This document shows positions 9,668-43,296 of a stretch of 64,000 nucleotides of DNA, one piece after another. This DNA comes from Macrolepiota albuminosa (Eukaryota; Basidiomycota; Agaricomycetes; Agaricales; Agaricaceae), in contig JAMWFC010000117.1 in the NCBI GenBank assembly GCA_027475525.1, forward strand, positions 2,714,183 through 2,778,182. The letters are read 5' to 3'. The notes beneath the pieces were generated by a model. The model saw only the letters and a list, made by a program, of their open reading frames with translations, searched no databases and was not told the DNA's origin. Both the position numbers and the translations under genes were made by a program. The first letter of the stretch is position 1, and each line of letters starts with the position of its first letter.

Positions 9668-9671
9668 GCGC

Positions 9672-10782: not shown

Positions 10783-10786
10783 GCGC

Positions 10787-17027: not shown

Positions 17028-17070
17028 AGTAGGGGGTGGGTGCAAAGGGGCCCTCGCTGGGGGGAATGGG

Positions 17071-19166: not shown

Positions 19167-20099
19167 TGATGACGCCCAAAGTTTGGTCAGCAACAAATGT
19201 AGCAATTGTGTTACCGTACCAAGAGTGTGCGTTGGGCACGCTAAAAGTGATTTGAGGAGTCCCAGGCAGGTCCCAGAGAACGCGCCTGTGAAAAAGAGGA
19301 AAATCGGTAACGGGGTCGGCAAGAGTCAAGCGCTAAGGTAAAGCGCTTAAGAAAAGAGCGGTAAGTGAACACGGCAAGGTCAACGGCAAGAGCACGGTAA
19401 GCTTAGCGAGATCTAAGCGTCGATAATGCCTGCCGTAGTTGCAAGGCGCGAATAAGTCGAAGTTTAGCGAGAGTCTGCAACTGCCAACAAGTTCGACGTT
19501 GCCGACCGTAAATGAGCTCTTGAGCGTAAGAGAGAGACTGATGTAAGGGGGAAACTCTGGTCTATTCGTCTGATGGTGTATGTACAAGTCGGTAAGTAAT
19601 ATATATACTACAAGGAGTTCACCGTCGCCAGTGACCAACCATCGCCAAAGTGCGGTAAACTGGAAAATTTCATAGGGGTAGCTCCAACGGTTTCAGATCC
19701 CTACCGTCTTTTCAAGACCCTTGGCGCCACCAGGCGGCAGATCGCGGTGCTAAACCATCACTCCATCACTCTTCTGTCTGTCAGAACCCCTAAGCGATGT
19801 TAAGCGCCAAATCGAGACGCTAAGCGGTGTCAGACGCCAAGGTCAAACGCCAAGCTGTCCGTCAGTTTTTGATAGATCATCAGGCTTCTCGCTAAGCGCT
19901 GTCGTCAGTGACTGATGCCATCTGTCAGTTGTCATTCTTGCTGCCGTCGGTGCTATCATTGATCGGATCTGCTTCTTGCCGTGCGCGGCCGTCAAATATC
20001 GCCAAAATTGGATAATTAGCGCGCGCTAAGGTATTTTGAGTTGGTGCCGTGTTGCCGTCGCCTGCCGTTGATGCGCTGATCCTGTATGGGGTCCTATCA
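19167..20099 (-). mobile_element. 3' LTR of element A
   Basis: 933 bp, from TGATGACGCCCAAAG to GGTCCTATCA. It differs from 29595-30527 at four sites that I could find, all transitions at CpG positions. Short motifs of the GCGCTAA/GCCAA type are unusually frequent. Confidence 0.92.
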
Positions 20100-20110
20100 T
20101 CTCCCCCCAA
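20100..20110 (-). other. Polypurine tract of element A
   Basis: On the minus strand TTGGGGGGAGA lies directly before the 3' LTR, where plus-strand DNA synthesis would be primed. Element B has TTGAGGGGAGA in the same place (32491-32501). Confidence 0.75.
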
Positions 20111-20268
20111 CTGAAAAATTGACTGTCCTCAGTCACCAAATATGGTTACCGTTACCGCTTTTGTGACAGGTGGTCCGTGCGTTCTTGAGATTTTGTTTAT
20201 AGTCCTGGCGCATAAGTTTGGACTTCACCTCTTCTCCCCATCTTTACCTGGCGCTCAAAAATCAAAAT

Positions 20269-22669
20269 ATGTCCTTCCGTATTCCAACTCCGCCCCCAGT
20301 GCCCTCTCATGGCGCCGAGGCGCCCCAAAAACTAGTGGTTGGCGTGATGAAACTTCTGGAGCGATGGTACGAGGTACGCGTTCTTGGCGTTGGTTGGGAT
20401 CGAGAAATCGAGGTGCGGGAGTGGTGCCGTGCGCGATATGTCGACAATCGTGGCGCTGAGTGGTTAGCGCCCTTTTCTCGTTTCGTAAGTTGTCTCTGTT
20501 GCCTGCCGTGTCGCTTAGCTGATTGCTTCCTAGGCGCCTCCCCCTGTCCCCACTATCGAGGACGAGTTGGAGGACATTCTGTCCGGGGCGTTGCCGATGA
20601 CGGTAAGCGCGCCTGCGACAGAGTGAGTATTTCTAACCACTTCATCCTAACTTAGCTCTGGTCTGATTTATCCCCCCACAGCAAACAAGAAGTGTTGGCG
20701 CCGTTGGCACGTATGCAGGTGGAGGAGGAGATCGCGGCAAGACAGGAGGAGGTTTCTCAAGACGCCCGCGAGATTACCAGGGCACTAGAGGAGCGGGAGA
20801 GAGTGGCAGCATTGGCGGCAGAGATGGAGGACGTTGCCGCGGGGAAGGCGCCTGTCGTTGAGAGGCCGGCAGTAGCAGAGGGATCCGGCAAGGTAGGTCG
20901 CGCCGGTAGCACTTCGAGCCCAGTGCTGCTGGCTAGCAAGTCGGGCTCGCCGAGGAAGCCGGTAGGCGCTTCCAAATGCAAGGTAAGTGCTGAATTTTGC
21001 TTACCGTTGCCGACTGTCGCTAACAACATTTGCAGAGTCGCAAGGCGGCTCCTCAATACGCGGTGAGTGGTACTTTCTTTCTGAACTGGAATTACTAAGT
21101 TTCTGCAGGCGCCAACCCAACGTTCCTTTGACGACAAGGAACTGAGAGGTTTGCTTTTGCCGCGTCGGGAGGAAGCCGTCCTGGACAAGGGGCAAGAGGC
21201 CAGGGTCGTAATGGAGGAAATGAAGGGGAAGAAAACCGTTTCCTTGGCGACTTGACAAGCCTTTAAGGAGGCACGGGGAGCGGTAAGTAACTTTTTCTGT
21301 CTGTTTTAGTCTCTTGCTGACTTGTAGCGCTAGTGTGACAAGTGCTGGGCCGACAACGACCCAGAAGGCTGTTGGTTCCCGACTGGGGCCCAGCCGTGCT
21401 ATCGTTGTGGCGCTCTAAAACGCGCTTGCACCATTGACGGGGCCAAGAGTCGTGAGCGTGGCGGCGTGCCAGATGCCCTCGTCGAGAAAACGTTTTCCCG
21501 CGCCGTCTTGGTTAGGAGGGCTAGGGAGTTTGTGGAGGGGCAGAGGGAGAAGGTCGCTGCCGGTGGTATGGCAGCCATTGGACGTGCCTCCTTGGCGTTG
21601 CCGACACGCCAAGGAGATGGGACGGAAACAGTCGGCCAACGAGGCGCTGGAGAGCGCCAAGGGACTTTGGTCCCAGAAAAGCGACAAGCCCCTTCCTCCA
21701 GCAAAGGGAAGGGCAAAGCAAAGCGACCTCGGGTAGTGTCGTCGCCTTCCCCCTCGCCAACCCCTCAAGACACCGAAATGGCCGATCTCGAGAAGGCCTT
21801 GGCGGCGAGTCGCCTGCCTCCTCGCGATTCTGAGGCAGGCCCAAGTGGCCTCCTGTCGCCTATTCATTTGGCGGCGAGGTCCCTTGGCGAGGAGCAGGAG
21901 GTAGGAGAACGGGAAGCGGTTGGCGACTCGGCGCCTCAAGAGGAGCGGGAAGACGCTCCTGCAGAGAGGAGCAGGAGGTAGGAGAACGGGAAGCGGTTGG
22001 CGACTCGGCGCCTCAAGAGGAGCGGGAAGACGCTCCTGCAGACGTCAAGATGGGGGAGGAGAAGGCAGAGGGGGCGGCAATGGGAGGGGATGAGGACGCT
22101 GAAGAGGAGGAGGATGAAACCTTGGCGACGAGGAGGTGGTAGCGGGAGAGGGTGAGGGGGTGGCAGGAGTCACTAGGGAGGAGCCTGAGTGGCGCTGGCT
22201 ACCTCCCTACAGTAGCGTGGCCCCTTGGGAGGTTTCAGACCCGGAGGACGTTGCCGGTCTGGAGCCTAGGCGCCCCGTGGTCGCCAGGGTCAATCCCTCT
22301 TGGACCCCCCAGCCGCAGCCAACGGTCACAGGCGACGCTTTCAACTGGCTGGGACAAGACCTCGTGTACCCGGTGGTGGCGCTTAACCCGTGGGAGATGT
22401 TGGAGAGGTTTTCGAGGAGGGCGGCAACGATGGAGGCGTCAATGAGTCGGGAGCGGGAACGAGTCCACGGTCAATTGATGGCGCTGAGGTTGCGTTACTC
22501 CAATTTGGGTCGTAGCCTTAGCGTTCTCTGCGACTACCAGGCAGATTGCCAAGCCACCATCGACTGGCAAACCACCAATAATATCTTGCCGGGCGACCTG
22601 CTTCCCCTTCGCGATTCCTCCTTGCCCATTACTGACGACTCCCTTTTGATGGACGATGTTAGCGAGTAA
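20269..22669 (+). pseudogene. Antisense spliced gene of element A, zinc-cluster-like protein
   Basis: This plus-strand gene lies between integrase and the 3' LTR. Exon 1 is 20269-20484 (MSFRIPTPPP to PFSRF). Introns with GT-AG ends are inferred at 20485-20533, from 20603, 20983-21035, 21063-21108 and 21293-21333. From 21334 it encodes CDKCWADNDPEGCWF and CYRCGALKRACT, a CX2CX8CX8CX2CX6C array resembling a fungal Zn2Cys6 cluster, but with eight rather than six residues in the second spacing. An acidic low-complexity region follows, then a conserved C-terminus ending at 22669. Element B has a homologue with matching intron sites. This copy has a TGA at 21253-21255, a 77-bp duplication and a frame change near 22120, so it is probably broken. 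A DNA-binding or regulatory role is inference only. Confidence 0.72.
21889..22042. repeat. 77-bp tandem duplication, perfect
   Basis: Copies 21889-21965 and 21966-22042 are identical. They shift the frame in the acidic region of the antisense gene. Confidence 0.92.
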
Positions 22670-23102
22670 ACGGACCTTAGCGTAGATAGGCCGTTTATGT
22701 ATATATATATTTTCTTTGCCGTCTTGTTCTATAAATGTTTTTGCCGCCTCCTTGCTGAGTGGACTTATAAGTCTTATAATCTGAGTTAGCGCAACGGCAG
22801 AGAGCAAGGAAGGTAAGGCAAAGAGAAAGCAAGCGGTAAGTATTCTAAAGTAGGTTTTAGCAAGAAGAGTAGTAGGTGAGGGACTTAGACAAATTTTGAG
22901 GAAAAAGGGAAACGCTCAGTAGATCATCATAGCGAAAAACCCTTGGCGAGAGTTGCGCAATGCGCTAAGCGTTGGCGACACGCTAGCGCTGCGGCTTGAC
23001 TATGTAAGAAATTGTCTGTTTGAATATAGTATAGTAAGTATCGGCAAGCAAGATAAGTACAGTAAGTAATAGAAAAATGAGAGCTTATCAGTATAGTCTT
23101 TT
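22670..23102. other. Convergent non-coding spacer of element A
   Basis: This 433-bp stretch separates the tail-to-tail ends of the plus-strand antisense gene and the minus-strand integrase. It contains an AT-rich TATATATATATTTTC segment near 22700. No ORF with homology to the rest of the window was seen. Confidence 0.6.
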
Positions 23103-24233
23103 CTAATCATTTTCTTCTTCTTCAACTAGAGTCGGTAAGTCATCATCGTCCAATAATTCGGTTTCTTCAAGTTCTCTCAGCTTGGCGGTGTCAATATCTA
23201 GCGCTTCAAGCGGCAAGTCAATTTGTTCTCTAGCGAGATATGGCAATAGGCGAAAAGCGGCAACGGGTCGATGCAGTACCGAACCATCTAATTCACAGAG
23301 CACATAAGCGCCGCCACGGTTACGAGAGATAACTACCAAGGGTCCCAGATAGCGCGGGCGCATTTTCTTATTGTATGAGGTTTCAATTTTGGAGTTGCGC
23401 ATAAGCACTAGCGCTCCCCGCGGGAAGTTGTAATCTTTGATAGTCACGCTATGGTCGGTTTCGAATCGCAGGGCTGCTTGGCGACGAGCGCTAAAGACTA
23501 CCTCGTGGAGTCGGTCTAAATCTTCTTTCCTTCGCTGGAGGTCAATGGCTCGTCTGGCGATAAGGTCGGTAGTCGCTAAGATGCTGTTGGGTGCTGGCTG
23601 AAGATAGGTCGCTTCTATAATGTCGGCAGGGAGTAACGGATGGGTGCCAGTAGCCGCGTAATAGGGAGAACAACCCATGCGCTTACGAATGGTAACTCTT
23701 TCCGACCAAAATACTGAATATGTCGCTTCACTCCAACGAGACTCGTCGCCATCGACTGCCTTGAAGAGCGCTTGCCGAACGTCAAAGTGTGGTCTCTCTA
23801 CCAGGCCATTGGCGCGCTTGTTGTAGCCAGATACTCGAATGTGGTGAATGTTGTATTTCTTGGCGAGATATGTAAGTGCTTTGATAATGGGCGCACCGTT
23901 ATCCGTGACGATTTTTCTTAGCGCTCCCCACCGGCAAATGACATCCTCAAATAGCCACTTGGCGACCGCATCGGTATTTTCTCTTTGAAGCATTCGAAAT
24001 TCAGGCCAGTGGATTAGCGAGCAACGACCTTGAATGATATACTTGTAGCGACCAGACTTGGGCATATGCATGGTGTCGACGTAGATTTTGCTGAAGAGGG
24101 GAGCTGGCGTTGCAACGGTTGGCGGTATGAGCACTTGGCGTGTCTGTTGAATTTGGCAGAGGTGGCAAGTCCTAATGTACCAGGCGATGTCGGCACTAGC
24201 GTGTGGCCACCAGAAGCGTTCTAACAGAGAAGC
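23103..24233 (-). CDS. Element A integrase core
   Basis: The integrase catalytic domain shows the three acidic residues in order: YVDTMHM, VTDNGAP and NGLVERPHF. Further on are the conserved GCSPYYAATGTHPLLP segment and a C-terminal RPRYLGPLVV domain. The acidic tail ends at 23103. The zinc-finger half (HDELGH and CHLC) is split by the in-frame TGA at 24234-24236, with the CHLC cysteines on this side. No chromodomain is visible, unlike in C1. It inserts element cDNA into the genome. The open frame without further stops suggests recent activity or readthrough. Confidence 0.85.
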   Translation of the reverse strand, partial: ASLLERFWWPHASADIAWYIRTCHLCQIQQTRQVLIPPTVATPAPLFSKIYVDTMHMPKSGRYKYIIQGRCSLIHWPEFRMLQRENTDAVAKWLFEDVICRWGALRKIVTDNGAPIIKALTYLAKKYNIHHIRVSGYNKRANGLVERPHFDVRQALFKAVDGDESRWSEATYSVFWSERVTIRKRMGCSPYYAATGTHPLLPADIIEATYLQPAPNSILATTDLIARRAIDLQRRKEDLDRLHEVVFSARRQAALRFETDHSVTIKDYNFPRGALVLMRNSKIETSYNKKMRPRYLGPLVVISRNRGGAYVLCELDGSVLHRPVAAFRLLPYLAREQIDLPLEALDIDTAKLRELEETELLDDDDLPTLVEEEEND

Positions 24234-26852
24234 TCAAGTAGCGTACAGACCTCTATGACCTAGCTCATCATGCATAGCGCGCAAGACTCGTAAGCGACCT
24301 TCTGGCTTGATGATCAGCTTGTGAGCGCCATCTCGATTTTGTCGCCAAAGTCTGTTGTCGGTAAAGAAGAAATGGGTAGCATATCGGATAAAAGTAGCGT
24401 ATTGTTCATCGGTAAGGTCTGGGGGTCGCTTAAGGTCTTGTAGCCATTGTTCAACGATTAACAAGCAACTGTCTTCTGCCTTTGCTTTGGCGGATCGGGG
24501 GACGGCATCGTAGGTCAGGTTTCTGCTGTCTTCTCTTAGCAGATGAGGTTCCTGTACGATGTTTACTGGAGGCAAGTCTTGTTTAAGGATGCTTGCCGTG
24601 TAGAACGTGAGGGGTGTGCTAAAGGTCTCGGGGCGGTAAGGGACGATGGGATGTAACAGGATACTGGTAGGCTGTTGCCGTCGTAGTAGGGGAATCGGTT
24701 GTTGTATGAGGTGCACAAAACCATGTAGTCTATCGATCCAGTCCTCGAAATCGCTATCAGCCTGTGGGTCCACTGCCGGGTCGCCAGGCTGCCGTGGTCG
24801 CCTAGAGAGTCCATCTGGTCCGTGGAAAGAGCTCTTGACGTGTACCAACTCAAAGTGAAACATGAGGATAGCGACTACCCACCGGTTCATGCTAGCGGAT
24901 GGCTGGATATCGGGATTCTGCAGCATGCCTTTGATGTACCTAGCGTCGACTTCAACAATCAGATTCCGCACGCCAATCAAATATATCTTTAGCGACCGGA
25001 AGGCTTTGAAGAGCCCATAGAGTTCTAGCTTAAGCTGACTGTAGCGAGACTCTCTGTTGTTTAGCGTGATAGACCCAAAGCAGTTGTAGCGTCGCTGTTT
25101 CCAATTGTCGCTAAGGCATTGGCACAAGAAGTAGCCAACGGCAATGTACGAGGTGTCCACCGCCAAGATAACAGGGTCGGCAGAGGTATAATCGATGGGG
25201 ACTAGGGGCTTGGCGTCTTGCAGGGCTTTTACTAAGTCGCGTTGGGCAGTGACCTGGTCTGGCCCAAATTCGAAGGGCTCGTTAGCGCGGGTGAGTCGGT
25301 TAAGGGCGTGTGCGCGATGGGCAAAGTTCTTGACGAATATCCTGAGAACGCCAACGGTACCAAGAAAGGCGCGAACTTCAGATAAGTCGCGGCAAGGACC
25401 CCAGCGCTCCAAGAGTGCTAAGCAAGACTCGTCGGGAACGCGTCCGTTGGGAGTGCAGATGTGACCGAGTATTTTGAACCTTGGCGCGCAAAGGAGGAGT
25501 TTGTGACCGCTAAACGTACCACCGCTATACTTCATTCGTTGGAGGACTCGATTGAGCAGCTGGAAGAACTCCCATAGCGCTAAGCGAATGTTGGAGTTGT
25601 CGGGATGGGTCGCCGGTAAGCCGTTTACGAGTCGCCAGTCTTTGGGACCTTTGACGCCAACGTCATCAATGAAGCTTAAGACGTTATGCGGTATCTCGGG
25701 TTGGAGGATGAAGGTGATGTCGTCATGGAATATGGGGACTGAGTTTGTCCAGCCCATCGGTAAGGTGACTAGGCGCAAGGCGCCAAACGGAGTTTGAAAG
25801 GTGGTGAGGTCACGGGAAGAGGGGTGTATCAAGCGTTCGTCGTAGCCAACATAGAGGTCAAGGGTGGCGCCACAAATGCGCCTGGCAAAGAACTCGGCAA
25901 CGTGGTCAGGAAATGGCGGTACGCCAGAGTGTCGTATAGTAACTCTATTCAGCGGTTCAAGACTGTGGACTATGCGTAGATTGCCGTTCTTTTTGAGGAC
26001 GCAGAACCAATGGGAGCAGTAAGAACTATTTGAGGGCTCGTAGACGCCAGCCTTAATCTTTGTCCTAATGATTTGGCAGACCTCGGCTTCGATTCCAGGC
26101 AGTAACGGTCGGTTGTGCTCAGTCCACGGCACGTGAGGGATAGTCGGGATGACAACAGGCGGGAAGAAATCTGTACATAGACTGCCGCGTTCTGAGTCCT
26201 CCCAAGCAAAGGCTTTGTCTTGCTTAGCGACAAGATCGGTAAGGACGTTCAACTCATCTTTGGTCAAAAATCCTGTGTTGTGCTCCTTGGCGAATTGTTG
26301 CTGGCGTTCCTCGGTAGAACGTCCTGTCAGCTGAAAAGGTGGCGGATTTGGTGATAAAGTCGGCATGTCGGCAAGAGGGTCGCCAATAATCTGGCGCTCG
26401 ATTCTAAACGTCTCGGGAGAGTGCGTAGCGATGGGCTTTGTTTTAAGCGCAACTGGCTTATATTTCTTTTTAACTTGTACCCCTTTCCTTTTGGGAGCGT
26501 TAGCTTGGTTATACACAGAAGTGGAAAGGGGAACGGTAGCCTGAGGGGCGGCAAGTCCAAGAACGGCAGGAAACGAGGCTCCGGGAAGGGTAGTGAGATA
26601 CGTATCGGTAGACACAATATTTTGAAATGATTTAGAAGCGGTAAGGTACAAGTAGGCAAGAGAGGAGTCGGTAATGTTTTGATTTTTCTGGGAAATCTCT
26701 GCGTCGGTAGTGGGTAAAGTAGTTAAAACATCTTGGTCAAGAAAAGCAGTAGACATAACAGTTACAAGACCAGTTGAATGGTCATATTCCAGCGTTAGCG
26801 CTACATCTCCGTGATCGTCGCCAATCACCTCCTCGATGGTCTGTGAAAACAC
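24234..26852 (-). CDS. Element A pol: reverse transcriptase and RNase H
   Basis: An 872-codon frame with RT motifs LRIVHSLEPLN, LDLYVGYDERLIHP, LPMGWTNSVPIF and the catalytic box LSFIDDVGV. RNase H follows with AVDTSYIAVG, LELYGLF and EVDARYIKGM. The FIDD box and the unusual DLYVGYDERL segment mark a Gypsy lineage different from the YLDD-bearing C elements. The C-terminus begins the integrase zinc finger (HDELGHRG), then meets a TGA. The first in-frame codon of this open stretch is not ATG, and it overlaps the end of gag-pro in the -1 frame, so it is probably made as a fusion by frameshifting. Confidence 0.88.
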   Translation of the reverse strand: MFSQTIEEVIGDDHGDVALTLEYDHSTGLVTVMSTAFLDQDVLTTLPTTDAEISQKNQNITDSSLAYLYLTASKSFQNIVSTDTYLTTLPGASFPAVLGLAAPQATVPLSTSVYNQANAPKRKGVQVKKKYKPVALKTKPIATHSPETFRIERQIIGDPLADMPTLSPNPPPFQLTGRSTEERQQQFAKEHNTGFLTKDELNVLTDLVAKQDKAFAWEDSERGSLCTDFFPPVVIPTIPHVPWTEHNRPLLPGIEAEVCQIIRTKIKAGVYEPSNSSYCSHWFCVLKKNGNLRIVHSLEPLNRVTIRHSGVPPFPDHVAEFFARRICGATLDLYVGYDERLIHPSSRDLTTFQTPFGALRLVTLPMGWTNSVPIFHDDITFILQPEIPHNVLSFIDDVGVKGPKDWRLVNGLPATHPDNSNIRLALWEFFQLLNRVLQRMKYSGGTFSGHKLLLCAPRFKILGHICTPNGRVPDESCLALLERWGPCRDLSEVRAFLGTVGVLRIFVKNFAHRAHALNRLTRANEPFEFGPDQVTAQRDLVKALQDAKPLVPIDYTSADPVILAVDTSYIAVGYFLCQCLSDNWKQRRYNCFGSITLNNRESRYSQLKLELYGLFKAFRSLKIYLIGVRNLIVEVDARYIKGMLQNPDIQPSASMNRWVVAILMFHFELVHVKSSFHGPDGLSRRPRQPGDPAVDPQADSDFEDWIDRLHGFVHLIQQPIPLLRRQQPTSILLHPIVPYRPETFSTPLTFYTASILKQDLPPVNIVQEPHLLREDSRNLTYDAVPRSAKAKAEDSCLLIVEQWLQDLKRPPDLTDEQYATFIRYATHFFFTDNRLWRQNRDGAHKLIIKPEGRLRVLRAMHDELGHRGLYAT

Positions 26853-26860
26853 CGGTGGGG
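26820..26860 (-). promoter_or_regulatory. Candidate -1 frameshift overlap between gag-pro and pol (element A)
   Basis: The gag-pro frame, read past a TGA at 27017, closes in a TGA around here, while the pol frame opens in -1. The overlap includes GTGTTTTC with a run of four T, and element B has the same sequence at its own junction (near 40890). No classical slippery heptamer is evident. Confidence 0.4.
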
Positions 26861-27016
26861 AGGCTCGTTGGCGTGTTGGTCGGTAAACTCCGGGGGCTTA
26901 GCACGGGCGCCTTTTCGTTGTCCCCTAGGGAACGTTGGCACCGTTCGTCGGATTCCGGAATTGGGGTCGCTAATTGTGAGGGTCGTTTCCTCGTCGGTAA
27001 CTGTCTTGACGACTGA

Positions 27017-29137
27017 TCACGCCAAGACGTCGAAGGGTCTGCCGAGTAGTAAGTCGTATGCTGGTGAACGTAAGATGTGTATTTGAAAATAAAACGTGAT
27101 GTCGCCAAGGGTGCACGGCACATTCTTGGCGAGGCCTAGGGATCGGTCTACTGTGCCGTTAGCACTCTGCATGTTTAGTATAACGGTAGGGTCGTAAATA
27201 AGGCCTAGATCATTAGCGACTTCGGCTGCCATAGAAATGATCTGAGACCCGCTATCCACAATTGCCTCTACCTCGTGCTTATTGTCTACGGTTAGCGCTA
27301 CCGAGCGGATAGCGTGCGATTCTTGAGCGACGGTAAGGATGGCGGGGTCCTCTCCATGGTCTACTGACCTAAAGTAGGTCTCTACTGGATCCACAGAGGT
27401 GGCGTTAGCGATGGGGTCGGCAAGAGGTTCATCGGTGTCGGGAGAGTCGATGGTAACAGAGAAACCAGGAAGCGCATCGTCGAGTTCATCAACCTCGGCA
27501 ACGGCTGTCGCCAAGGGTCGTTGGGGAGTGACTGCCGTCTTGACTTGGTTGCGAACATCGGGAGCAATACTACAAAGTTCTTCTACTGATAAGGTGACGG
27601 CGGTTTTCATGATGCGGCTAAAGACGTGATTTGATTTCTCTATATCGAAAATTGGCGCGGTAGGTCGGTAACCACCTTCAGGACGTTTCTCAGGAGCGGC
27701 AAAGTTTTGTTGAGCGGGAGCATGATAACGGTCAGGAATCCCTGAGTAGGGATGGAGAGGCGGCAAAGGCGGTTCGGGAGCGGTAGCGGACGACGATGGT
27801 TCTGAAGCAGGAGCAGGGGCAGTGGCAGGAGGTGCGGCAGGAGCAGGTGTCGGTAACTTGCTAGCGGGAGGCATTGGCTTGTATCCTTTAAGAGGCTGTT
27901 TAGGCTGCTTAACTTCAACCCCATCAAACACCTGATTCTTAAGCGAATCCAGCTCCTGTTGGAGCTTGGCGATACGCTCTTCCCGCGAGAAAGTAGGGTG
28001 GTCGCCAACGCTGTCGAAATGTAGGACCTCGTGAATCATCTGCTGTTGGGTCGCTTGTTCAGGGTCGGGGTTGGCGTTGCCAGATAGCGTGCCGGTAACG
28101 ATCTGTCCTGGGTTGCGCCTATGCCACTCATCAACTCGCTCCTGGAAGGACTTCTTGTCTGGGTAGTTGGGAATGATGGCGCCAGTGGTGAGAACTATCT
28201 TGCCGTCGATAGCCCGTCGAATCCTTCCTTGCCGAATGTAGTTTTCTAGGGTAACGCAGCGTCCTCTAGTCATAGTGTGGCCAATTTCCCCACAGAAGTG
28301 GCAAGGGCCAGGTGCGGGTACGTTAGCGGGTCGGTTAGCAGTGAGGTTGGTGGTGATCATGGTTTCAATACGCGTCATAGCGGAGGCGACAGCGGCGGTA
28401 ATAGCAGCATTGAGCTCTTCTTTCTTAACGAAGTCGGTAGTGGGAGGCGGGATGGGAATTATACCGTTAGTTCGCTCAGGTGGTGGGCTTGTCCTAGCGC
28501 GCTGCAGCCCAACGCCAGTGTCCGTTCCCTTGAGAACCCATTTACCGGCTTCAAAGACGTCGGCAACGTTATAGGGCTCGTCAGGGTGATGGGCCTGATG
28601 AACTATCTCTAGGCGACGAGCAATACGAGTCCACAGTGACGTCGGGATGCCTTGCTGAAATAGGCGACGTTCCTCGTTGATATAGAGCTTGCCGTTTTGT
28701 ACTAACCACCTAGCGATCTTCTGGAACTCGCGGTAATACGTGGAGAATGTGCCAAGCGACGATGTGCCACTGTCGAAAGATTCCTGAACTAGTTTCTGAA
28801 GCTCGTTTACCGTGTATCGGGTAGCCTCCTTGGCGCCAGGGTACAGCTGGATCACTGCCGTCTTCCAGTCCTCATACGAAGCGCCTTGGGCTGGAACTGG
28901 CGGTGCGGCAGGGACAAAGGCGGCAAACTCGGTCAAACCAGTCCACGTCTCTGCCGTGTCATATGATACGTATCTTGCCGCGTACTCCTTCATCTGTGTA
29001 TGGTCGGTAATGTTACAATCCCTGAATAAATACTCCAACTCCTTAAAATACTGGGAGAGCTCCCGTGGCTTGGACTCGTCCCATTTTGGTGCCGAGAAGT
29101 GGTTGCGTGGTGGCATGCGTTGGACTTGTTGTTCCAT
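27017..29137 (-). CDS. Element A gag and protease
   Basis: A 706-codon frame. It starts MEQQVQRMPPRNHF and covers a capsid-like domain with ELSQYFKELEYLFRD and QGIPTSLWTRIARRLE. The zinc knuckle is CHFCGEIGHTMTRGRC, which has five residues before the last cysteine where four are usual. Proline/alanine-rich spacers precede the aspartic protease with IVDSGSQIISMAAE and LLLGRPFDVLA. It stops at TGA 27017-27019, where element B has a CAA codon, so this stop may be a mutation. It forms the particle shell and matures the polyprotein. The gag matches B along its length. Confidence 0.88.
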   Translation of the reverse strand: MEQQVQRMPPRNHFSAPKWDESKPRELSQYFKELEYLFRDCNITDHTQMKEYAARYVSYDTAETWTGLTEFAAFVPAAPPVPAQGASYEDWKTAVIQLYPGAKEATRYTVNELQKLVQESFDSGTSSLGTFSTYYREFQKIARWLVQNGKLYINEERRLFQQGIPTSLWTRIARRLEIVHQAHHPDEPYNVADVFEAGKWVLKGTDTGVGLQRARTSPPPERTNGIIPIPPPTTDFVKKEELNAAITAAVASAMTRIETMITTNLTANRPANVPAPGPCHFCGEIGHTMTRGRCVTLENYIRQGRIRRAIDGKIVLTTGAIIPNYPDKKSFQERVDEWHRRNPGQIVTGTLSGNANPDPEQATQQQMIHEVLHFDSVGDHPTFSREERIAKLQQELDSLKNQVFDGVEVKQPKQPLKGYKPMPPASKLPTPAPAAPPATAPAPASEPSSSATAPEPPLPPLHPYSGIPDRYHAPAQQNFAAPEKRPEGGYRPTAPIFDIEKSNHVFSRIMKTAVTLSVEELCSIAPDVRNQVKTAVTPQRPLATAVAEVDELDDALPGFSVTIDSPDTDEPLADPIANATSVDPVETYFRSVDHGEDPAILTVAQESHAIRSVALTVDNKHEVEAIVDSGSQIISMAAEVANDLGLIYDPTVILNMQSANGTVDRSLGLAKNVPCTLGDITFYFQIHILRSPAYDLLLGRPFDVLA

Positions 29138-29594
29138 AGCGACTGTGGTAGCGAGTTCGGTTAGCGGTAGTGGGGAAGGGGTTCTAGAGATTGGCGATGG
29201 GGTAAGCGAAATGAGTTGAGAAAGATAGCGAGTTCGGTTAGCGGTAGTGGGGAAGGGGTTCTAGAGATTGGCGATGGGGTAAGCGAAATGAGTTGAGAAA
29301 GAGGCGTTAGCGGGGTAATGGGAGTAACTGGTTGCGGTACGGTAAATGGCGACGCTAAGGGGTCGTCGGCGCTATAATCGAGGGAATGCGGGAAGAGATC
29401 AGGAAATGCGTCTACAGTGGCGTTCTGTAGTTCCTGGGCAAGAGAGAGACCCGGTAAGGCACCAGGTGGTTGTGGGGTTGATGGGTGGGAAGGAGCTATG
29501 CCTTCTGCCGACTGGTCTAGCAGGCGGCGCCTACGCTGGAGACGGGTTTCTGGCGGAATTCTGCCCTAGAGATCCCTCGCGGTGGGCTCCAATT
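29138..29594 (-). other. Element A 5' leader with primer binding site
   Basis: A 457-bp leader. The primer binding site is 29574-29591, whose plus-strand sequence CCCTCGCGGTGGGCTCCA equals a tRNA 3' end including CCA. It sits three bases from the LTR. The base before CCA is T, so the primer tRNA would have U73, as tRNA-Cys typically does. The leader also contains the duplication 29149-29302. Confidence 0.72.
29149..29302. repeat. 77-bp tandem duplication, perfect, in A leader
   Basis: Copies 29149-29225 and 29226-29302 are identical and lie in non-coding sequence just upstream of gag. Confidence 0.92.
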
Positions 29595-30527
29595 TGATGA
29601 CGCCCAAAGTTTGGTCAGCAACAAATGTAGCAATTGTGTTACCGTACCAAGAGTGTGCGTTGGGCGCGCTAAAAGTGATTTGAGGAGTCCCGGGCAGGTC
29701 CCAGAGAACGCGCCTGTGAAAAAGAGGAAAATCGGTAACGGGGTCGGCAAGAGTCAAGCGCTAAGGTAAAGCGCTTAAGAAAAGAGCGGTAAGTGAACAC
29801 GGCAAGGTCAACGGCAAGAGCACGGTAAGCTTAGCGAGATCTAAGCGTCGATAATGCCTGCCGTAGTTGCAAGGCGCGAATAAGTCGAAGTTTAGCGAGA
29901 GTCTGCAACTGCCAACAAGTTCGACGTTGCCGACCGTAAATGAGCTCTTGAGCGTAAGAGAGAGACTGATGTAAGGGGGAAACTCTGGTCTATTCGTCTG
30001 ATGGTGTATGTACAAGTCGGTAAGTAATATATATACTACAAGGAGTTCACCGTCGCCAGTGACCAACCATCGCCAAAGTGCGGTAAACTGGAAAATTTCA
30101 TAGGGGTAGCTCCAACGGTTTCAGATCCCTACCGTCTTTTCAAGACCCTTGGCGCCACCAGGCGGCAGATCGCGGTGCTAAACCATCACTCCATCACTCT
30201 TCTGTCTGTCAGAACCCCTAAGCGATGTTAAGCGCCAAATCGAGACGCTAAGCGGTGTCAGACGCCAAGGTCAAACGCCAAGCTGTCCGTCAGTTTTTGA
30301 TAGATCATCAGGCTTCTCGCTAAGCGCTGTCGTCAGTGACTGATGCCATCTGTCAGTTGTCATTCTTGCTGCCGTCGGTGCTATCATTGATTGGATCTGC
30401 TTCTTGCCGTGCGCGGCCGTCAAATATCGCCAAAATTGGATAATTAGCGCGCGCTAAGGTATTTTGAGTTGGTGCCGTGTTGCCGTTGCCTGCCGTTGAT
30501 GCGCTGATCCTGTATGGGGTCCTATCA
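29595..30527 (-). mobile_element. 5' LTR of element A
   Basis: Same 933-bp length and termini as the left LTR. It is followed by GCGC, then by C2 sequence in the protease-RT region. Confidence 0.92.
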
Positions 30528-31341
30528 GCGCTCAGTCCAGGCATAGCCTGCACTTCCTCCTCCACATCCTCCACCGCCGGCACTCTGCGCCGGCCAAGTC
30601 ATGGAGACTCCTTGCATTTCTCTGTAGTGCGATGATGTCGCAGACGATTATCAGTGTCATCTGCTGTAGCTCATTTGGCTGGGATCACTTTCCCATTCAC
30701 TAGTACCTGACAGTGGTCAAAGTCTAATATGACTTTGTTACGCCGCATGAATGGAATTCCCAGTATCATATCATAGCGATCTAAGTTTGCTACATCCATG
30801 TATTCCTGGCTATGTGAGCCCGGTGTTTGGACAGTCACATTCGTCCCATACTGCACCATGGCTTGGCTCCCTATGGTGCTCAGCTGTAATGCCAATGGCG
30901 TATCTAACTCCTGCACGGATATTCCGTACACATGGGCAAACTGGGGCATTATGCCCAACGTAGTACTCCCAGAGTCTCATAAGGTCCATGCCTTGTGGCC
31001 ATCTACGTCCGCATACGAGACCAGGCACTCCTTGTCTGCCCGTTTCAATGTAGGGCGCTGCAAAGTGCCCTCTGCATGACGAAGAGTCACCTTCTTCATC
31101 CAAACCACGTTATTCTTTTTGGGATTATTTGTAGACGGCCAATCTGTCATCGCCGCTAGGCACTCGGAGTCGCTGTCACGACTGTAGTACTCGTTGTTGT
31201 AGACGTCATCATATACGTCGACTGTGACGTACTCCTCCCCCTCCACGACCACACTCTTGGGCTCAGCGCCTGATGCCTCCTCTGGGGGCTCCTGGCCGTT
31301 TGTGGGGTGCTCTGCCTCAGACTTGGCAGACACATCTCCGT
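30528..31341 (-). pseudogene. Element C2 protease fragment
   Basis: Homologous to 57050-57850 of C1. Minus-strand reading gives the acidic segment EHPTNGQEPPEEASG, VSYADVDGHKAWTL, then a TGA in place of TGG, then the protease DSGSTT motif and ILGIPFMRRNKVI. A TGA at 30599-30601 marks the end of the gag-pro frame exactly as in C1. Element A is inserted at its left edge and element B at its right edge (after CCGT, 31338-31341). Confidence 0.85.
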
Positions 31342-32490
31342 TGATGACGCCAACTGTGGTTGGGTGTGCTGGACGTATATGCAATACAACGCCGTCTCCA
31401 GCGCTTGGCGTGCGTAGTTGTGAGGAGTCCCGACAGGGTCCCGGTGTGCTTGAGTGGAGGTGGTAAAACGATGCGCTAGATTATAGCGCTCCAGGGGCTA
31501 CCTGGGAGACGGGAAGCGTCGTAGTTTAAACAGAGATATTGAAGAAAAGACAAGTAGCGCAGTGTATTGTGCCTGTAGGTGGCACCGTAAACAACGAAGA
31601 CAAGATAGACAAGGCTAGCGCCCAACTTAGTGACGAAGTCAAAGGAAGCTAGTGCGATTGGAATGCTCAGTGTAACTGTCTGTGTGCAAGGGGTTACGAT
31701 TCGTTGTTATATACATGTAAAGTAGCTATTTTATATACTATGCGCTACCGTGTTTGCCAAGATACAAGTCCATCTGTGGCGCTACCTCCTAGCGCCTCTC
31801 CTCATGGTTTCCTCTAACAGCAACCTGTCAATGGCAACCTTTTGCACATGGATGACGGCAACCAACGGCGTTCTAACCCACAGCGACCAGCGGCGACTCT
31901 ATATTGGCTTAGAATTGCATGAGTCTGCTCACTTTTAACCAACGGCGTTCTAACCCACAGCGACCAGCGGCGACTCTATATTGGCTTAGAATTGCATGAG
32001 TCTGCTCACTTTTATTATAACTCCAATTGGCCAGGCTGTTTTGGGTATGGTCGGAAAATCCTTGACAGACGCCGTGAGCGCTAATGTCAGCGCTACACAT
32101 TGTATTAGTTCCTGACAGGTCCAGATGTCGGATTTAAGTATATCCAGTGCCGCCGTCATTGATCCTTTTAGACTTCTGATTGAAGTGCCTCGTCAAATGG
32201 CAGCGCCTGCTGCTGGCTCCTTCTAGAAGTGATTGAGGCTTAGTTAGAGTCCTCTCCCGCCGTCGTGTTAGCGCTATACGTTATGAGCCTCCTTTGTCCT
32301 TGGGATAGGTGAATGGAGTGTGCTGAAGGCTTGGTAGCTAGTGGTTAGGATAAATGTCTAAATCCTGTAGTAGGTTGCCAGAGCTAGGGCTGCTCTATAT
32401 TCCCAACTGGTCGCTAGAGTCCTCAGTACGTCAAGTGTTGGTTGGCCTATAATGTCCCTTGATGTGCTCAGTCCGAGTAGAAGCCCATCA
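31342..32490 (-). mobile_element. 3' LTR of element B
   Basis: From TGATGACGCCAACTG to AAGCCCATCA. It contains the 77-bp duplication 31860-32013, after whose subtraction it has exactly the length of the right LTR. Confidence 0.88.
31860..32013. repeat. 77-bp tandem duplication, perfect, in B LTR
   Basis: Copies 31860-31936 and 31937-32013 are identical. The partner LTR at 44489-45560 has only one copy, so the extra 77 bp is specific to this place. Confidence 0.94.
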
Positions 32491-32578
32491 TCTCCCCTCA
32501 ACTGAAAAATTGACTGTCCTCAGTCAAATGCCGTCATTAATTTGGCTGCGCTACGGTCTGTATGATGCCGCTGGCGCC

Positions 32579-32588
32579 TTATAAAAGT
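32579..32588 (+). promoter_or_regulatory. TATA box of the B antisense gene
   Basis: CTTATAAAAG lies about 50 bp before the ATG at 32637. A matching but weaker block (TGGCGCATAAG) stands at the same place in element A, so the antisense gene appears to have its own promoter just inside the 3' LTR. Confidence 0.6.
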
Positions 32589-32636
32589 CGTTTTCAGCAC
32601 TTCACCTTCTCATGTTTTCCTTCCCATCTTTCCAGC

Positions 32637-35146
32637 ATGTCTACTCCTTTTGATGCCTCTGCTCTCCGCAATTTCCTGGCTAAGGCCTCCTATTTATTCA
32701 ATCGCGCTAAGTCTGTCGGTCCCGCCGATGCACCACAAACTGTCCCTGGCATTATGCAACTCTATTGGCGCTGGCTTGTGGTCCGCGGCTCTGACAGTTC
32801 CTGGGCACGGGGCGTCAAGGTTCATGAATGGTGCATGGCTCGGTACTGCGAATATGAGGGTGCCGATTGGTTACTACCGTTTGCGGACTTGTTCGTAAGT
32901 TTTTAGGTTTGATTTTGGATTCGTGGCGCTAAGGTTCAGCGCCCATACTAGGCTCCTTCTCTGTCTGACGAGATTGACGCCCTGCTGGCTAGTACCGAGG
33001 TTGGCGAAGTGAGTTCCCTCCTCTTCTTCCTCACATTTCCATGTTAATCCTGAGTAGTCGGTTGCTACGTCGCCCACTGTCACCAGTCTTCCTAGTGCCC
33101 TGTCAGCCCCTACCATTCCTTCCGCTCTGGCCGCTCCTGCTGCTCCTGTTTCTGTTCTGCCTCCTCCCATTCTTGGTAGTCCTTTTTGTGGCGATGATTC
33201 TCCTGCTCGTCCTGCACCCATCGTCGCTTCTCCCACTCGTACTGCACCACCTCACTCAGCCATCAAATGGATTGCCGTTACCGCCAGTGAGCCCCAGCCT
33301 GGACCTACCCATACTATTTCTCGCCTTCCCCCCCATAACTTTGCCGTTGTTATTAATCGCGTGCCCCCTGCTCTCGCTAGCCCTCCTAAACGTACCGTAC
33401 GTCCTTGTTTTCTTGCCTCTAGTTCTTCTATTAACTTTGCTTCTCAGGTCAATCTCCCTGCTCGTGTTGCCCCTTTATATGCCATAAGTGTTTCCTTTTA
33501 AGATTGCTTGTCTCTAGCGCCTGATCGAGCCCTCCTTAGGCACCCAACCAGACTATGTTTACCAACGCGGAGCTTCGTGATTTGTTGTGCCTTCGTCACG
33601 ATACTACTGTTATTGATACCGGCCTCCCAGCTGGTGTCCAAGTACTCGGCGCTAAGAAGAAGGTTACAGTGGCACCCGTGGAACGCCGTGCCTTTAGGGC
33701 AAAGATTGGCGTGGTAAGTGCTTGTTTGTTCCTGAAAGGTTGATGACGTCGCTAACTTCTTTCTCAGTGCGATAAATGCTGGTCTGAGAACGATCCCGAG
33801 GGTTGCTGGTTTCCTACCGCCTTTCTTCCCTGCTACCGCTGCGATGCGTTGAAACGGGGCTGTGCCTTTAATGGGATTCGTACTTGTGAACATGGTAGGG
33901 ACGCTATCATGCAACGCAATTACGAGCACGCAGTCTTAGTTTGTAATGCCCGGGCCTTCATGCTGCAGCAATGCGATCTGGCCGCTACCTGTCAGCCCAC
34001 TGTGATTAGCGCTGCAAGCCTAGCGCTTCCCACCATCCAAGATGGTACCACCGTTGCGGCCCCCTTTGCCCACTCTCCCCATTGTCCCATCCCTTTGAAG
34101 CGTAAGCCCGTTGTCACCTCTCCTGGCAAGAGTCCCGGTAAGCGCCGGGAGCTAGCGCCTGCTACTCCCGTGGTCTTGTCTTCTACCAAGTTGTCTACTG
34201 ATGAAGGCGAGGATACCAAGAGGGATGCTGAGGACGAGGATGACGATGAGGCTGGGCCTGTAGTCGACACCGATGCGCTGTTGGTGGTACACGCTCTTCT
34301 GCTTTGCATTACTCCCCCTATCGCCGCTAACCCTTATCAGAGTGGCCCCAGTGGTAATCGGTGCATAGTCTTTGAGTTTTCCTTGTCAGGTTGCGCTAAC
34401 TTCTTTGTCGCCAGGTCCCCTACTCCTTCGCTTCCTGTTGTCATGAATATCCCTCCCGCCGAAGATGTCGTGATGTCTGTTGCCGGCGCTACCCCTGCTC
34501 CTGAGCCTGTCATGGCTAGCGCCTCCCCCATCGCCCTTCCTATTACCCCATCTCTTACCCCTTCTCGTAGCCTCTCTTCCTTCCCCAGTACTCACGAGTC
34601 CTCCACCATGCCTGAGTCCAAAGAGACCTTAGTGGCTCAGGGCAAGCGCCGTCGCCGCTGGAGGTATTTGCCTTCTTATGGCATCCACCTTTCTTCCGCT
34701 AGGGCCATGTCCCCAGGCGATGAGCGCCATGAATGGACCCCCTGTGCTCCCATAACCATTCGAGTAATTCTGCATTTCCTAGTTAGTTCGCCTTTCCTCT
34801 GACCTCCACTAAGTTCGATCCTTTCTGGACTCCTCCCCCTGCCATGCACGTTTCTGGTGACACCTACCCTTGGCTTGGGAATGAGTTCTCTTATTCTGTC
34901 ACTCCCCTTTGTCCTGCCGCCGATCTCCATCAACAACTTCGCCAGGTCGAGGACGTGACCGACGTCATCGGTAGTGAACTCGTCCTCCTATGTCCTCATG
35001 TCTCCACCTTAGCACGCCGTGAGCTCCTCCTGCTTGAGCTCCATGATGACATCACTGATGCGCTTGAGTGGCAAGCAAGTAACACCATTCAGGACAGGGA
35101 CTTGTTTCCTTTGGGTGATCCCGCTCCCTCCGAGTCTGATGCGTAG
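32637..35146 (+). pseudogene. Antisense spliced gene of element B, zinc-cluster-like protein
   Basis: Homologue of the A antisense gene. Exon 1 is 32637-32894 (86 codons, ending WLLPFADLF); intron 32895-32951; exon 2 is 32952-33008; intron 33009-33057; then a proline/serine-rich exon. A conserved exon 33540-33713 begins APNQTMFTNAELRDLL, followed by intron 33714-33767. The cysteine array starts at 33768 with CDKCWSENDPEGCWF and CYRCDALKRGCAF. An Asp/Glu-rich stretch and a basic RRRRWRYLP box follow. The C-terminus (DTYPWLGNEF to the stop at 35146) lies in another frame after 34802, so there is either an unseen intron or a frameshift. Intron sites match those of A. Sequence decay is milder in the N-terminal half. 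The function is unknown. Confidence 0.68.
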
Positions 35147-35630
35147 TCGCCAGCCCATAGCACCTCAAACTTTTATGGATTTTGAAATTTTTGATACGTA
35201 GTTTGTGATAGCCCTACCAAAAATAAACGCTCCCCCCCCTTGTTTCGAAATTGTCAGTTTGTAAGTAATCAAAATACAAAGTAAGAAAAAGGGGAAACAC
35301 TCAGTAAATCATCATGGCGTAGAAAACCCCTATTACCAGCACGACCCAATAGCCAATATCGCGCCAGCCTAGGAAGAAATAGGTATTGTCTGTAGAAAAA
35401 TAAGTTGATTCATGCAAGAAGTTTTAATGTATAAGAAATAGAGTGCCACTGATTGCTTATAATTATTCAGTGATGGTGGCTATAAGCGCTAGATCTCGAA
35501 GGTTAACTTCCTCTTTGTGCGGCCTAAAATGAGTTCAAGCGCATCCTATTGGTTCTTGTCTGCGTCAGGGTCCAAGCCCCTTGAGAAGTGCTCTCCCACG
35601 CTGTCACTAGCTGAAACACTGCCCGAGTCC
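35147..35630. other. Spacer between antisense genes of element B
   Basis: Non-coding, AT-rich in its first half (poly-A-like runs around 35220-35300). No supported ORF was found. Confidence 0.55.
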
Positions 35631-35638
35631 TATAAATT
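35631..35638 (+). promoter_or_regulatory. TATA box of the second B antisense gene
   Basis: TATAAATT stands 43 bp upstream of the ATG at 35674, in a normal position for a core promoter in fungi. Confidence 0.5.
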
Positions 35639-35673
35639 GCCCATGCCATGACAGGATCTCATCAGTCTTTGCG

Positions 35674-37256: not shown

Positions 37257-38382
37257 TTACTGTTCCTCTTTGTCATCAGGAGTGATCTCGTCATCGTCCA
37301 CCAACTCGGTCTCTTCAAGCTCTCGCAGTTTGGCTGTGTCAATGTCTAGCGCCAGCAAAGGTAGTGGAATGTGTTCACGTGCTAAGTAGGGAATGAGTCA
37401 AAACGCCGCTACCAGTCAATGCAAAACCGAGCTGTCCAACTCGCAGAGTACGTAGGCTCCTCCCCTATTGCAGGAAACTACTATGAGGGGCCCTAGGTAT
37501 CAAGGTCGCATCTTTTTGTTATGGGTAACTTTGATTTTCGAGTTGCGCATTAGCACTAAGGCACCAGCTGTAAAGTTGTAGTCTCGGATAGTAGTGCTAT
37601 GCTCGCTTTCAAATCATAATGCAGCCTGTTGTCTAGCTTGAAATACCACCTCATGTAGGCGCTCTAGATCCTCCATGCGTCGTTGTAAGTCAATGGCATG
37701 CCTAGCGATCAGATCGGTAGAGGACAGGATTGAGTTAGGTGGGGGTTGTAAGTACGTCGCCTCCACAACGTCCGCTGGAAGCAGGGGATGAGTGCCAGTC
37801 ACCACGTAGTAAGGAGAACAGTCCATCCTCTTCCGTACGGTAACTCATTCAGACCAAAAGACTGAATAAGTTGCTTCACTCCAGCGACTTTTGTTGCCGT
37901 CTACCGCCGTAAATAGCACCTGTCATACATCAAAATGTGGCCTTTCCACTATACCGTTAGCGCGTTTATTGTATCCTGAGACTCAAATATGCTGTATGTT
38001 GTATTTCTTAGCGAGGTAGGTAAGCGCCTTAACTATTGGCGCTCCATTGTCTGTAACAATCTAGTGAAGGGCTCCCCACCTGCAAATAACATCTTCGAAG
38101 AGCCACTTAGCTATAGCGTTGGTATTTTCCTGCTGGAGCATACAAAACTCCAGCCAATGTACCAAAGAGCACCTTCCTTGGATAATGTACTTGTAGCGCC
38201 CCGACTTGGGCATGTGCATAGTGTTGATATATCTTTCCGAACAAGGGTGCTGGAGTCGCTACGGTTGGGGGAATAAGAACTTGGCACATCTGTTGGATTT
38301 GGCAGAGATGACAAGTGTGAATATACCATGCGATATCGGCACTAACTTGAGGCCACCAAAAACGTTCAAATAAATTTGCTCA
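37257..38382 (-). pseudogene. Element B integrase, degenerate
   Basis: Homologous over its length to the A integrase but with many stops and small indels. The longest surviving stretch is 37826-37614, with CSPYYVVTGTHPLLPADVVEATYLQ. The end reads AKLRELEETELVDDDE, matching A. The zinc-finger half has CHLC, and a TGA at 38380-38382 in exactly the position of the TGA in A (24234). It is not expected to be functional. Confidence 0.8.
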
Positions 38383-40903
38383 TGTTGTGTAGAGTCCTCG
38401 ATGTCCCAAGTTGTCATGCATAGCACGCAAAATCCTAATGCGGCCCTCTGGTTTGATTACCAATTTGTGAGCACCAGCCCTATTTTGTCACCAAAGCCGG
38501 TTCTCAACCATAAAGAAAGTCGTCGCATATCGAATGAAGGCGGCGTATTCCGTATCTGTAAGGTCTGATGGTCGGCGCAAATCCTGTAACCACTTTCTAA
38601 CCTGATCAACTCGTTGGTCTTCTGACCTAGCCTTAGCGCTACGAGGTACCGCTGAATATGGGAGGTTGCGACTATCTTCCTGTAAGGGTCTGGGTTCCTC
38701 GACTATCTTTAGATCATTAGATGGCTTAGCGACGTTATAGATACTGGCCATGTAAAAAGTTGATGGAGCCTGATATGGTTTAGGTTGATACGGGATGATA
38801 GGGTGTAGCCAGGTCAAGACAGGTTGGTCTTCGTGAAGGGCCGAAATAGGCAATTGGATAATATGTATGAAACCATGCAACCGGTCAATCCAGTCGTCAA
38901 ATATGTCGTTATCGCTTTTGTCCAGTGCTTCGTCCTCTGGCTGCCTAGGTCATCTAGATAGTCCATCAGGTCCGTGAAACGCACTCTTGACGTGGAACAT
39001 GAGTATTGCTACTACCCAGCAATTCATGCTAGCCGAAGGTTGAATGTCTGGATTCTGGAGCATTCCTTTGATGTAGCGTGCATCAACTTCGACAATCAAG
39101 TTTTGAACCCCAATAAGATACATGCGTAGCGCCTGAAACGCTCAAAACAAGCCATATAATTCCAGTTTGGGCTCACTATAGCGCGCTTCTCTGTTGTTTA
39201 GGGTAATCAATCCGAAGCAATTGTAGCATCGCAATGTAAGAAGTGTCAACGGCAAGTATAACGGAATCGGACGTAGTATAGTCAATGGGTACCAATGGCT
39301 TCGCTTCCTGCAGCGCCTTCACTAAATCCTTTTGGGCGTTAATTTGGTTGGGTCCGAATTTGAAGGGGATCCCAGAACGAGTTAGGCGATTAAGCGCATG
39401 CACTCGATGTGAAAAATAGTGTATGAACATGCGCAGCACGCCTACCATGCCTAGAAACGTGTGAACCTCCGAGAGGTTATGGCAGACTCCCCACTTTTCC
39501 AGAAGCGCTAATTGGCTCTCCTCTGGGATCCTGCCCTCAGGCATGCAAACATGCCCTAAAATTTTAAATTGCAGTGCGCAAAGAACCAACTTGTGTCCTG
39601 AGAACGTTCTGCCACAATACTTTATGCGCTGGAGCACCTGGTTAACCAATTGGAAGAAGTCCCATAGCGCCATGCGGATATTGGGATTTTCCGGGTGTAC
39701 TTTGGGCTTGCCATTTACAAGGCGCCAATCTTTTGGGCTCTTAACGCCTACATCGTCGATAAAGCTAAGCACATGGTGGGGTATTTTGGGTTGTAGAATA
39801 AACGTAATGTTATCGTGGAATATGGGTACTGAATTAGTCCATCCCATGGGAAGTGTAACCAGTCGTAGCGCTCCAAATGGCGTTTGAAATGTCATCAAGT
39901 CGCAAGAGGAAGGGTGAATTAAGCGCTCGTCATAGCCAACGTACAGATCCAGGGTAGCGCCACATATTCTTCCTGCAAACGATTCAGCAACGTGATTGGG
40001 GAAGGGCGGTACCCCTGAATGACAAATCGTGACTTTGTTTAGCAGCTCCAAACTGTGAACTATATGTAGCTTTCCATTTTTCTTCAGTATACAAAACCAT
40101 CGTGATCGGTAGGCCAAATTGGAAGGCTTGTAAACTTCTGCCGCTATTTTGGAACGAATAGTTTGGCAAACTTCGGCTTCAATACCCAGTGGTATAGGTC
40201 GGTTATGCTCGGTCCAAGGTACGTGAGGTATCGTTGGTATAACCACTGGTGGAAAGAAGTCAGTTCTAAGTTTACCGCGTTCAGAATCCTCCCAAGCAAA
40301 TGCTTCGTTTTGCTTTAGCATAATGTTGGTCAATACATCTAGTTCCGCTGTCGTTAGAAAGCCTGTATCGTAGGCGCTAAGGAATAGCGCCCATCGTTCT
40401 TCCATAAATTGTCCGGTAGGCTCGAAGGGTGGCGGGTTCAGATTAAGCTTGGGAAGGGTTGCTAATGGGTCTCCAATGATCTTTCTTTCGATGCGAAATT
40501 CTTCAGGTATGCCGCTTGCTACCGGTTTTGTTTTAAGCGCTACTAGCTTGTACTTCTTTTTAACCTGAACCCCTTTGCGCTTAGGGGTACTGTTGTTAGC
40601 AAATGTATTATAAATGGAACTCTGGTTTCTAGCGAAACCGGATATCAAAAGTTCTTTAGTATCAGGAGTAGAAACAAAATAAGTGTCTGTCAAAAGGTTT
40701 TCAGTAATATCGGATGCAGTGAGGTATAAGTAGGATAAAGCTTTGCTAGTAAGCGACATAGAAGTGTTCAAGATTTCAGGGGCTAAAGGGGTATGTGATA
40801 TAAAGGTTACTTGCCCAGTCCGATGATTATAGTCCAAGATAAGCGCTTCATCTCCATGATCCTCATCACTCATCTCCTCGATGGCGCCGGAAAACACTTG
40901 CAA
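38383..40903 (-). pseudogene. Element B pol: RT and RNase H, degenerate
   Basis: The RT part (40903-39176) is open, with LDLYVGYDERLIHPSS, LPMGWTNSVPIF and the LSFIDDVGV box. RNase H starts (AVDTSYIA) but lacks about 16 residues present in A and changes frame there. A second stretch, 38880-38488, matches the A pol C-terminus (HGFIHIIQLPI). Additional stops lie between. It overlaps the gag-pro frame at 40866-40903 in -1, as in A. Confidence 0.83.
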
Positions 40904-43291: not shown

Positions 43292-43296
43292 CTAGG

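Follow-up and report, generated by a model that had tools for sequence, protein, structure and literature searches.

Accessory genes placed antisense between pol and the 3′ long terminal repeat (LTR) are already known from plant retrotransposons, and to these can be added brtn, an additional antisense gene in Boty-like Ty3/Gypsy elements of Botrytis cinerea (title of Zhao et al. 2011, Virology 417:248, as cited in PMC7264820 and PMC8365987). For the antisense open reading frames (ORFs) of plants, excerpts of PMC7264820 propose a role in nuclear entry and raise an effect of the antisense RNA. Here, we describe a 64,000-nucleotide stretch of the basidiomycete Macrolepiota albuminosa (contig JAMWFC010000117.1, positions 2,714,183 to 2,778,182, forward strand; hereafter the window), taken from a 100-Mb genome in 129 contigs. 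In it, two Ty3/Gypsy insertions on the minus strand, elements A (19167-30527) and B (31342-45560), each carry an antisense gene with predicted introns for a protein with six invariant cysteines. This gene is element-borne, and it is under purifying selection at the protein level, because variation in the exons falls on third codon positions and the ratio of nonsynonymous to synonymous substitution (dN/dS) lies far below that of the introns.

The two plus-strand genes are homologous, lie between integrase and the 3′ LTR, and have predicted introns at matching positions, all in phase 0 (Table 1). There are five such introns in A and six in B, the extra one being in the C-terminal part. Exon boundaries were set by splice sites conserved in alignments of 28 further copies of A and 28 further copies of B. 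Across the 11 predicted introns the donor GT is present in 25 to 27 of 28 copies and the acceptor AG in 27 or 28, A intron 3, which precedes exon 4, being the exception (Table 1). When A was compared with B exon by exon, the N-terminal exon, the 58-codon APxQ exon, the cysteine exon and the C-terminal part aligned better than all 500 shuffles; the short exons were marginal (9 of 500 shuffles equally good for exon 2, 6 of 500 for exon 4), and exon 3 could not be aligned (274 of 500 as good). The coordinates, strand and homologous blocks given for both genes in an earlier, sequence-only reading of the window were confirmed. The window copy of A is broken: its APxQ exon has an in-frame stop, and its last exon, which in many other A copies is an open frame of about 425 codons, has a 77-bp tandem duplication and frame changes. 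In the window copy of B all exons are open and one intron lacks its GT donor, as it does in 3 of the 28 other B copies. Exons 1, 2, 3 and 5 are open in 17/28 A copies and all exons in 13/28 B copies.

Genome matches to the cysteine exon were scored for 150 of 771 candidates with A and for 150 of 765 with B, and the antisense gene stands at 300 or more scored places across both families. Since the hit lists hold best hits only, the following counts of arrangement are lower bounds. For A, the cysteine or N-terminal exon lies antisense downstream of integrase in at least 71 of 109 scored integrase hits (the cysteine exon alone in at least 45 of the 109, at 1273-1516 bp), and for B the gene does so in at least 100 of 150, at 3276-5152 bp; any other arrangement of gene and integrase occurs once or twice among the scored hits. 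This is the position and orientation of the plant aORF-3R type, antisense between pol and the 3′ LTR. Six of the 38 A misses were sampled: four carry a diverged gene (cysteine exon 79-82% identical), one retains a C-terminal remnant only, and one has no exon hit.

The sequence-only reading had proposed an intron-bearing antisense gene that is common to A and B and borne by the elements, and this is upheld by the fixed arrangement with integrase and by purifying selection. Hits confined to stand-alone host genes, which it had named as evidence that would speak against it, were looked for and not found. Three database searches returned 14, 75 and 48 proteins, of which all that are named come from Termitomyces (P0068 is unnamed), and the blocks follow one another in the same way in Termitomyces proteins such as P0017 (684 residues). 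Judged by these relatives, the host probably belongs to Termitomyces or stands close to it. A captured host gene, carried without function for the element, might be suspected as no relative was found outside these elements and the Termitomyces gene models, but it is hardly credible: hundreds of copies show selection, the gene is kept in both families, whose pol DNA is 72% identical, and element sequence adjoins it on at least one side in 28/28 sampled A copies and 27/28 sampled B copies.

In both sets of 28 copies, third codon positions carry the variation and first and second positions do not, and this pattern is confined to the exons; in the A cysteine exon, variation is 0.05-0.24 at third positions and 0-0.04 at first and second positions. 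Chance is excluded by the copy number together with this codon-position-specific variation. A dN/dS near 1, the other outcome that the sequence-only reading had said would count against it, was likewise sought without success: values are 0.009-0.175 for A exons (26 copies, two rearranged copies being dropped) and 0.250 for all exons of B (28 copies), compared with 0.863 for A introns and 0.957 for B introns read as codons. Within the last exon of A the cysteine part gives 0.038, the linker 0.091 and the C-terminal part 0.114, and A integrase gives 0.037 (14 copies). The cysteine values are biased low, the copies having been picked by that exon; copy sets picked otherwise give 0.052 and 0.102. 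The same data bear on the idea that the antisense transcript is itself the functional product, by forming double-stranded RNA or by interfering with transcription of the sense strand. Across the 3′ end, such RNA would anneal to the genomic RNA, an effect of the sort raised for plant elements, but conservation specific to codon position and dN/dS well below 1 require a protein, which leaves this explanation little probability.

Fourfold divergence in 36 same-element pairs was 0.142 for integrase, 0.336 for the antisense exons, 0.237 for the introns and 0.124 for the flanks, the exons exceeding integrase in 36/36 pairs. Exon fourfold sites also diverge more than introns within each family (A, 0.316 versus 0.244; B, 0.146 versus 0.106). 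Pair by pair, the exons exceed the introns of the same gene in 202 of 231 A pairs and 262 of 276 B pairs, and close copies share an identical intron 1 yet differ at synonymous exon sites. Trees of integrase, the 5′ exons and the 3′ exons (11 elements) reject one another, with p at most 0.0025 in the approximately unbiased test; the integrase tree is weakly supported. The module is exchanged among elements, and an older, exchanged module accounts for part of the exon fourfold excess, less clearly for the excess over introns. An anti-silencing role like that of plant VANC proteins is conceivable for the protein, and fast, exon-specific change with module exchange would suit a silencing conflict in which the protein shields its copies from the host. 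The fourfold excess is modest overall, however, and could be explained by constraint on the short introns or by an older exchanged module; as nothing links the protein to chromatin or RNA interference, a shielding factor of this kind seems quite doubtful.

The predicted introns are retained in 27 or 28 of 28 copies at each of the 11 sites. They survive reverse transcription because the gene is antisense, so that in the sense genomic RNA these segments are not introns. The family is a clear case of introns persisting inside a retrotransposon owing to a backward-facing gene.

The six cysteines follow the pattern C-X2-C-X8-C-X8-C-X2-C-X6-C and are intact in 28/28 A and 28/28 B copies, which were picked by the cysteine exon, and in four copies picked by integrase. 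The sequence-only reading had seen in this array a Zn2Cys6 cluster with altered spacing, a likeness that goes as far as six cysteines in two CX2C...C halves. With the profile of that family (PF00172, Zn_clus), neither the two window arrays nor any of the three relatives scanned matched at E ≤ 10, while the Gal4 control scored 1.3e-12. In Zn2Cys6 proteins the first half is CX2CX6C with basic residues; here it is CX2CX8C, with the acidic loop WADNDPEG or WSENDPEG, and the identification is not supported. The second half, CX2CX6C with KR, resembles Gal4-type loops. Window exons have nothing in Pfam beyond one sub-threshold match, and 43 relatives show scattered weak matches to 18 families. In the relative P0013, residues 63-90 match DUF3716 (PF12511) at E 0.22, below the cut-off and over the first cysteine half only, possibly a distant lead. 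In a model of a full-length relative, the N-terminal domain is helical, residues 128-188 form a long helix and the C-terminal part is again helical; fold searches gave no convincing match.

A palindrome, TGACTGTCCTCAGTCA, occurs exactly at 20120 and 32511, accompanied in both families by a polypurine tract and a U-box-like stretch; its expected count in the window with one mismatch allowed is 0.19. It is exact in 25/28 A copies and 25/28 B copies, and genome-wide it is found at 767 places, against 36 for a reversed control. Among the first 50 places listed, 45 have the same spacer, and 31 of these 45 have an antisense exon or integrase hit in the expected place, the lists being partial. TATA-like boxes lie between palindrome and ATG in both families.

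The six-cysteine protein is likely a nuclear regulator of its carrier element. More specifically, and at somewhat less than an even chance, this antisense gene with five (A) or six (B) predicted introns, conserved as a protein, encodes a nuclear DNA-binding regulator whose target would be the 3′ LTR of its own element, at the inner end. Plus-strand transcription would be driven by a promoter, with the TATA-like boxes, that lies between polypurine tract and ATG, and the spliced mRNA would yield a protein of about 700 residues made up of an N-terminal helical domain, the long helix, the APxQ domain, the six-cysteine array and basic stretches. The long helix probably pairs with a partner, the array probably holds metal, and the basic stretches probably serve nuclear entry. 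Binding of the shared palindrome would then tune both sense and antisense transcription.

Several observations weigh against such a regulator. The cysteine array is modelled at a predicted local distance difference test score of about 40, with no confident fold, and no DNA-binding domain was recognised by Pfam in window exons and relatives or by fold search. The basic stretches that follow the array look like nuclear signals by eye only. Exon 3 of B is weakly constrained (0.48). In the listed sites the spacer of the palindrome shows as much conservation as its arms, which a simple operator would not require. Finally, the palindrome persists, adjoining the polypurine tract, in a locus with an A-type integrase (L069; G000:C78:1887241-1891741) where no antisense-gene exon turned up. 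Because it is kept there and lies beside the polypurine tract, the palindrome may serve reverse transcription instead.

If the protein acted in the replication cycle instead of in transcription, by helping the pre-integration complex into the nucleus, by priming the plus strand or in integration, the palindrome would be an RNA hairpin or priming signal. The palindrome's place next to the U-box-like stretch and polypurine tract in both families, its persistence in L069 and the nuclear entry proposed for plant antisense ORFs all speak for this, yet a structural protein would usually come from the sense RNA, and a promoter of its own with an intron-bearing antisense mRNA would better fit a low-level regulatory product; on balance a replication role is rather unlikely, if far from negligible. 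A bolder version of the regulator is unlikely too, and a shade more so. It would make the protein the first of a new family of six-cysteine DNA-binding proteins, recognising TGACTG-N4-CAGTCA next to the polypurine tract, with the antisense introns as a lock (only sense genomic RNA being copied back), the module swapped between elements, and codons drifting faster than introns as a silencing process that reads the spliced mRNA rewards synonymous change.

Table 1. Features of elements A and B and of their antisense genes (window coordinates)
Feature	Position	Strand	Observation
3′ LTR of A	19167..20099	-	933-bp repeat, 99.6% identical to 29595-30527
Palindrome TGACTG-TCCT-CAGTCA just inside A 3′ LTR	20120..20135	.	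adjoins U-box and polypurine tract; 133 bp before antisense ATG
TATA-like TTTATAG upstream of gene A	20196..20202	+	seen in printed A copies keeping the flank; not counted by script
Gene A exon 1, 72 codons, WY/EWC block	20269..20484	+	third-position variation; dN/dS 0.123 (26 copies)
Gene A exon 2, 23 codons	20534..20602	+	dN/dS 0.009 (26 copies); splice sites
Gene A exon 3, 109 codons, predicted long helix	20656..20982	+	dN/dS 0.175; matches LWTELSP.. of Termitomyces models
Gene A exon 4, 9 codons	21036..21062	+	phase 0; acceptor here in 16/28 copies, shifted in most others
Gene A exon 5, 58 codons, APxQ..ELRxLL; in-frame stop in window copy	21109..21282	+	dN/dS 0.058
Gene A last exon: six-cysteine array, linker, C-terminal helical part; duplicated and frame-shifted in window copy	21334..22669	+	array intact in 28/28 copies
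Integrase part of A	23103..24233	-	Pfam Integrase_H2C2 1.5e-07; 109 scored genome hits
gag, protease, reverse transcriptase, RNase H ORFs of A	24234..29260	-	gag-asp_proteas 1e-07, RT_RNaseH 2.9e-12
5′ LTR of A	29595..30527	-	repeat partner of 19167-20099
3′ LTR of B	31342..32490	-	repeat partner of 44489-45560
Palindrome in B, identical	32511..32526	.	110 bp before antisense ATG
TATAAAA upstream of gene B	32580..32586	+	seen in printed B copies keeping the flank; not counted by script
Gene B exon 1, 86 codons	32637..32894	+	dN/dS 0.285, median pair 0.167
Gene B exon 2, 19 codons	32952..33008	+	dN/dS 0.168
Gene B exon 3, 113 codons	33058..33396	+	dN/dS 0.482, weakest
Gene B exon 4, 12 codons; non-GT donor in window copy	33448..33483	+	splice-site alignment
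Gene B exon 5, 58 codons, APxQ, length equal to A	33540..33713	+	dN/dS 0.162; 0/500 shuffles as similar to A
Gene B exon 6, 332 codons, six-cysteine array	33768..34763	+	array intact in 28/28 copies; first 77 codons dN/dS 0.087
Gene B exon 7, 110 codons plus stop, YPWLG region	34814..35146	+	dN/dS 0.256
Integrase region of B, interrupted in window copy	37257..38574	-	72% DNA identity to A integrase; short ORFs only
5′ LTR of B	44489..45560	-	repeat partner of 31342-32490

Both elements have the direct LTRs and short target repeats of Ty3/Gypsy insertions. The LTR pieces of B are 94-97% identical, and 4-base direct repeats stand at the outer edges (GCGC in A, CCGT in B). A and B are inserted in a third element, copies of which match the flanks of both. 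Along the minus strand, A shows the order gag - protease - reverse transcriptase/RNase H - integrase, with Pfam matches for protease, RNase H and the H2C2 integrase; the reverse transcriptase core has no Pfam match and was identified by eye. The gag of A (27020-29260, minus strand) matches DUF4100 at 1.7e-04, under the curated cut-off. Window positions 1-16132 and 44049-60180 are 100% identical over 16,132 bases, with a period of 44,048 bp that is also visible in genome hits upstream of the window, and runs of N lie at 16133-16232 and 61350-61449. The repeat is either a recent tandem duplication or an assembly artefact near gaps, and it doubles A and B in the copy counts. Beside the first gap, 16430-17661 is GC-rich and repeat-laden; long ORFs overlap there on the two strands, and the stretch contains an exact tandem repeat of 80 bp.

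Why retrotransposons keep antisense accessory genes is an open question, and the present family, in which hundreds of copies fall into two diverged versions with measurable selection, conserved predicted introns and a shared palindrome, makes it directly testable. Among fungal systems, brtn offers the likeness of an extra antisense gene in a Gypsy element. Boty gag-pol, according to part of PMC4227169, has a CHROMO domain; a Pfam scan of the 376-amino-acid integrase ORF of A found Integrase_H2C2 and a sub-threshold SH3_Tf2-1 only, and a Boty-type chromovirus, with its chromodomain after integrase, was rejected on that scan. Plant Gypsy elements of the Retand/Tat type (Grande gene23, RIRE2) were compared for their antisense ORFs, whose domain is TRP28 (PF04195). 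In the window exons this domain goes unmatched at E ≤ 10, and the 18 families that the 43 relatives hit do not include it; the Retand type was set aside as well. The genes of A and B differ from these plant ORFs in the six-cysteine array and in the predicted introns, the word "intron" being absent from the main text of both plant-ORF papers compared. A search of the open-licence literature, with subscription papers outside its reach, turned up no description of a retrotransposon with a spliced, antisense gene of this six-cysteine kind.

A further comparison is with HBZ of human T-cell leukaemia virus type 1 (HTLV-1), which is spliced, encodes a basic leucine zipper (bZIP) protein and represses the 5′ LTR. 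Like the genes of A and B, HBZ lies antisense at the 3′ end of its LTR element, and its product is nuclear (PMC11963269, in part). The A and B protein has no bZIP match, and the likeness is one of working only. If the protein is indeed a DNA-binding regulator, it would represent a new family of cysteine arrays and a fungal counterpart to antisense control of the HBZ type.

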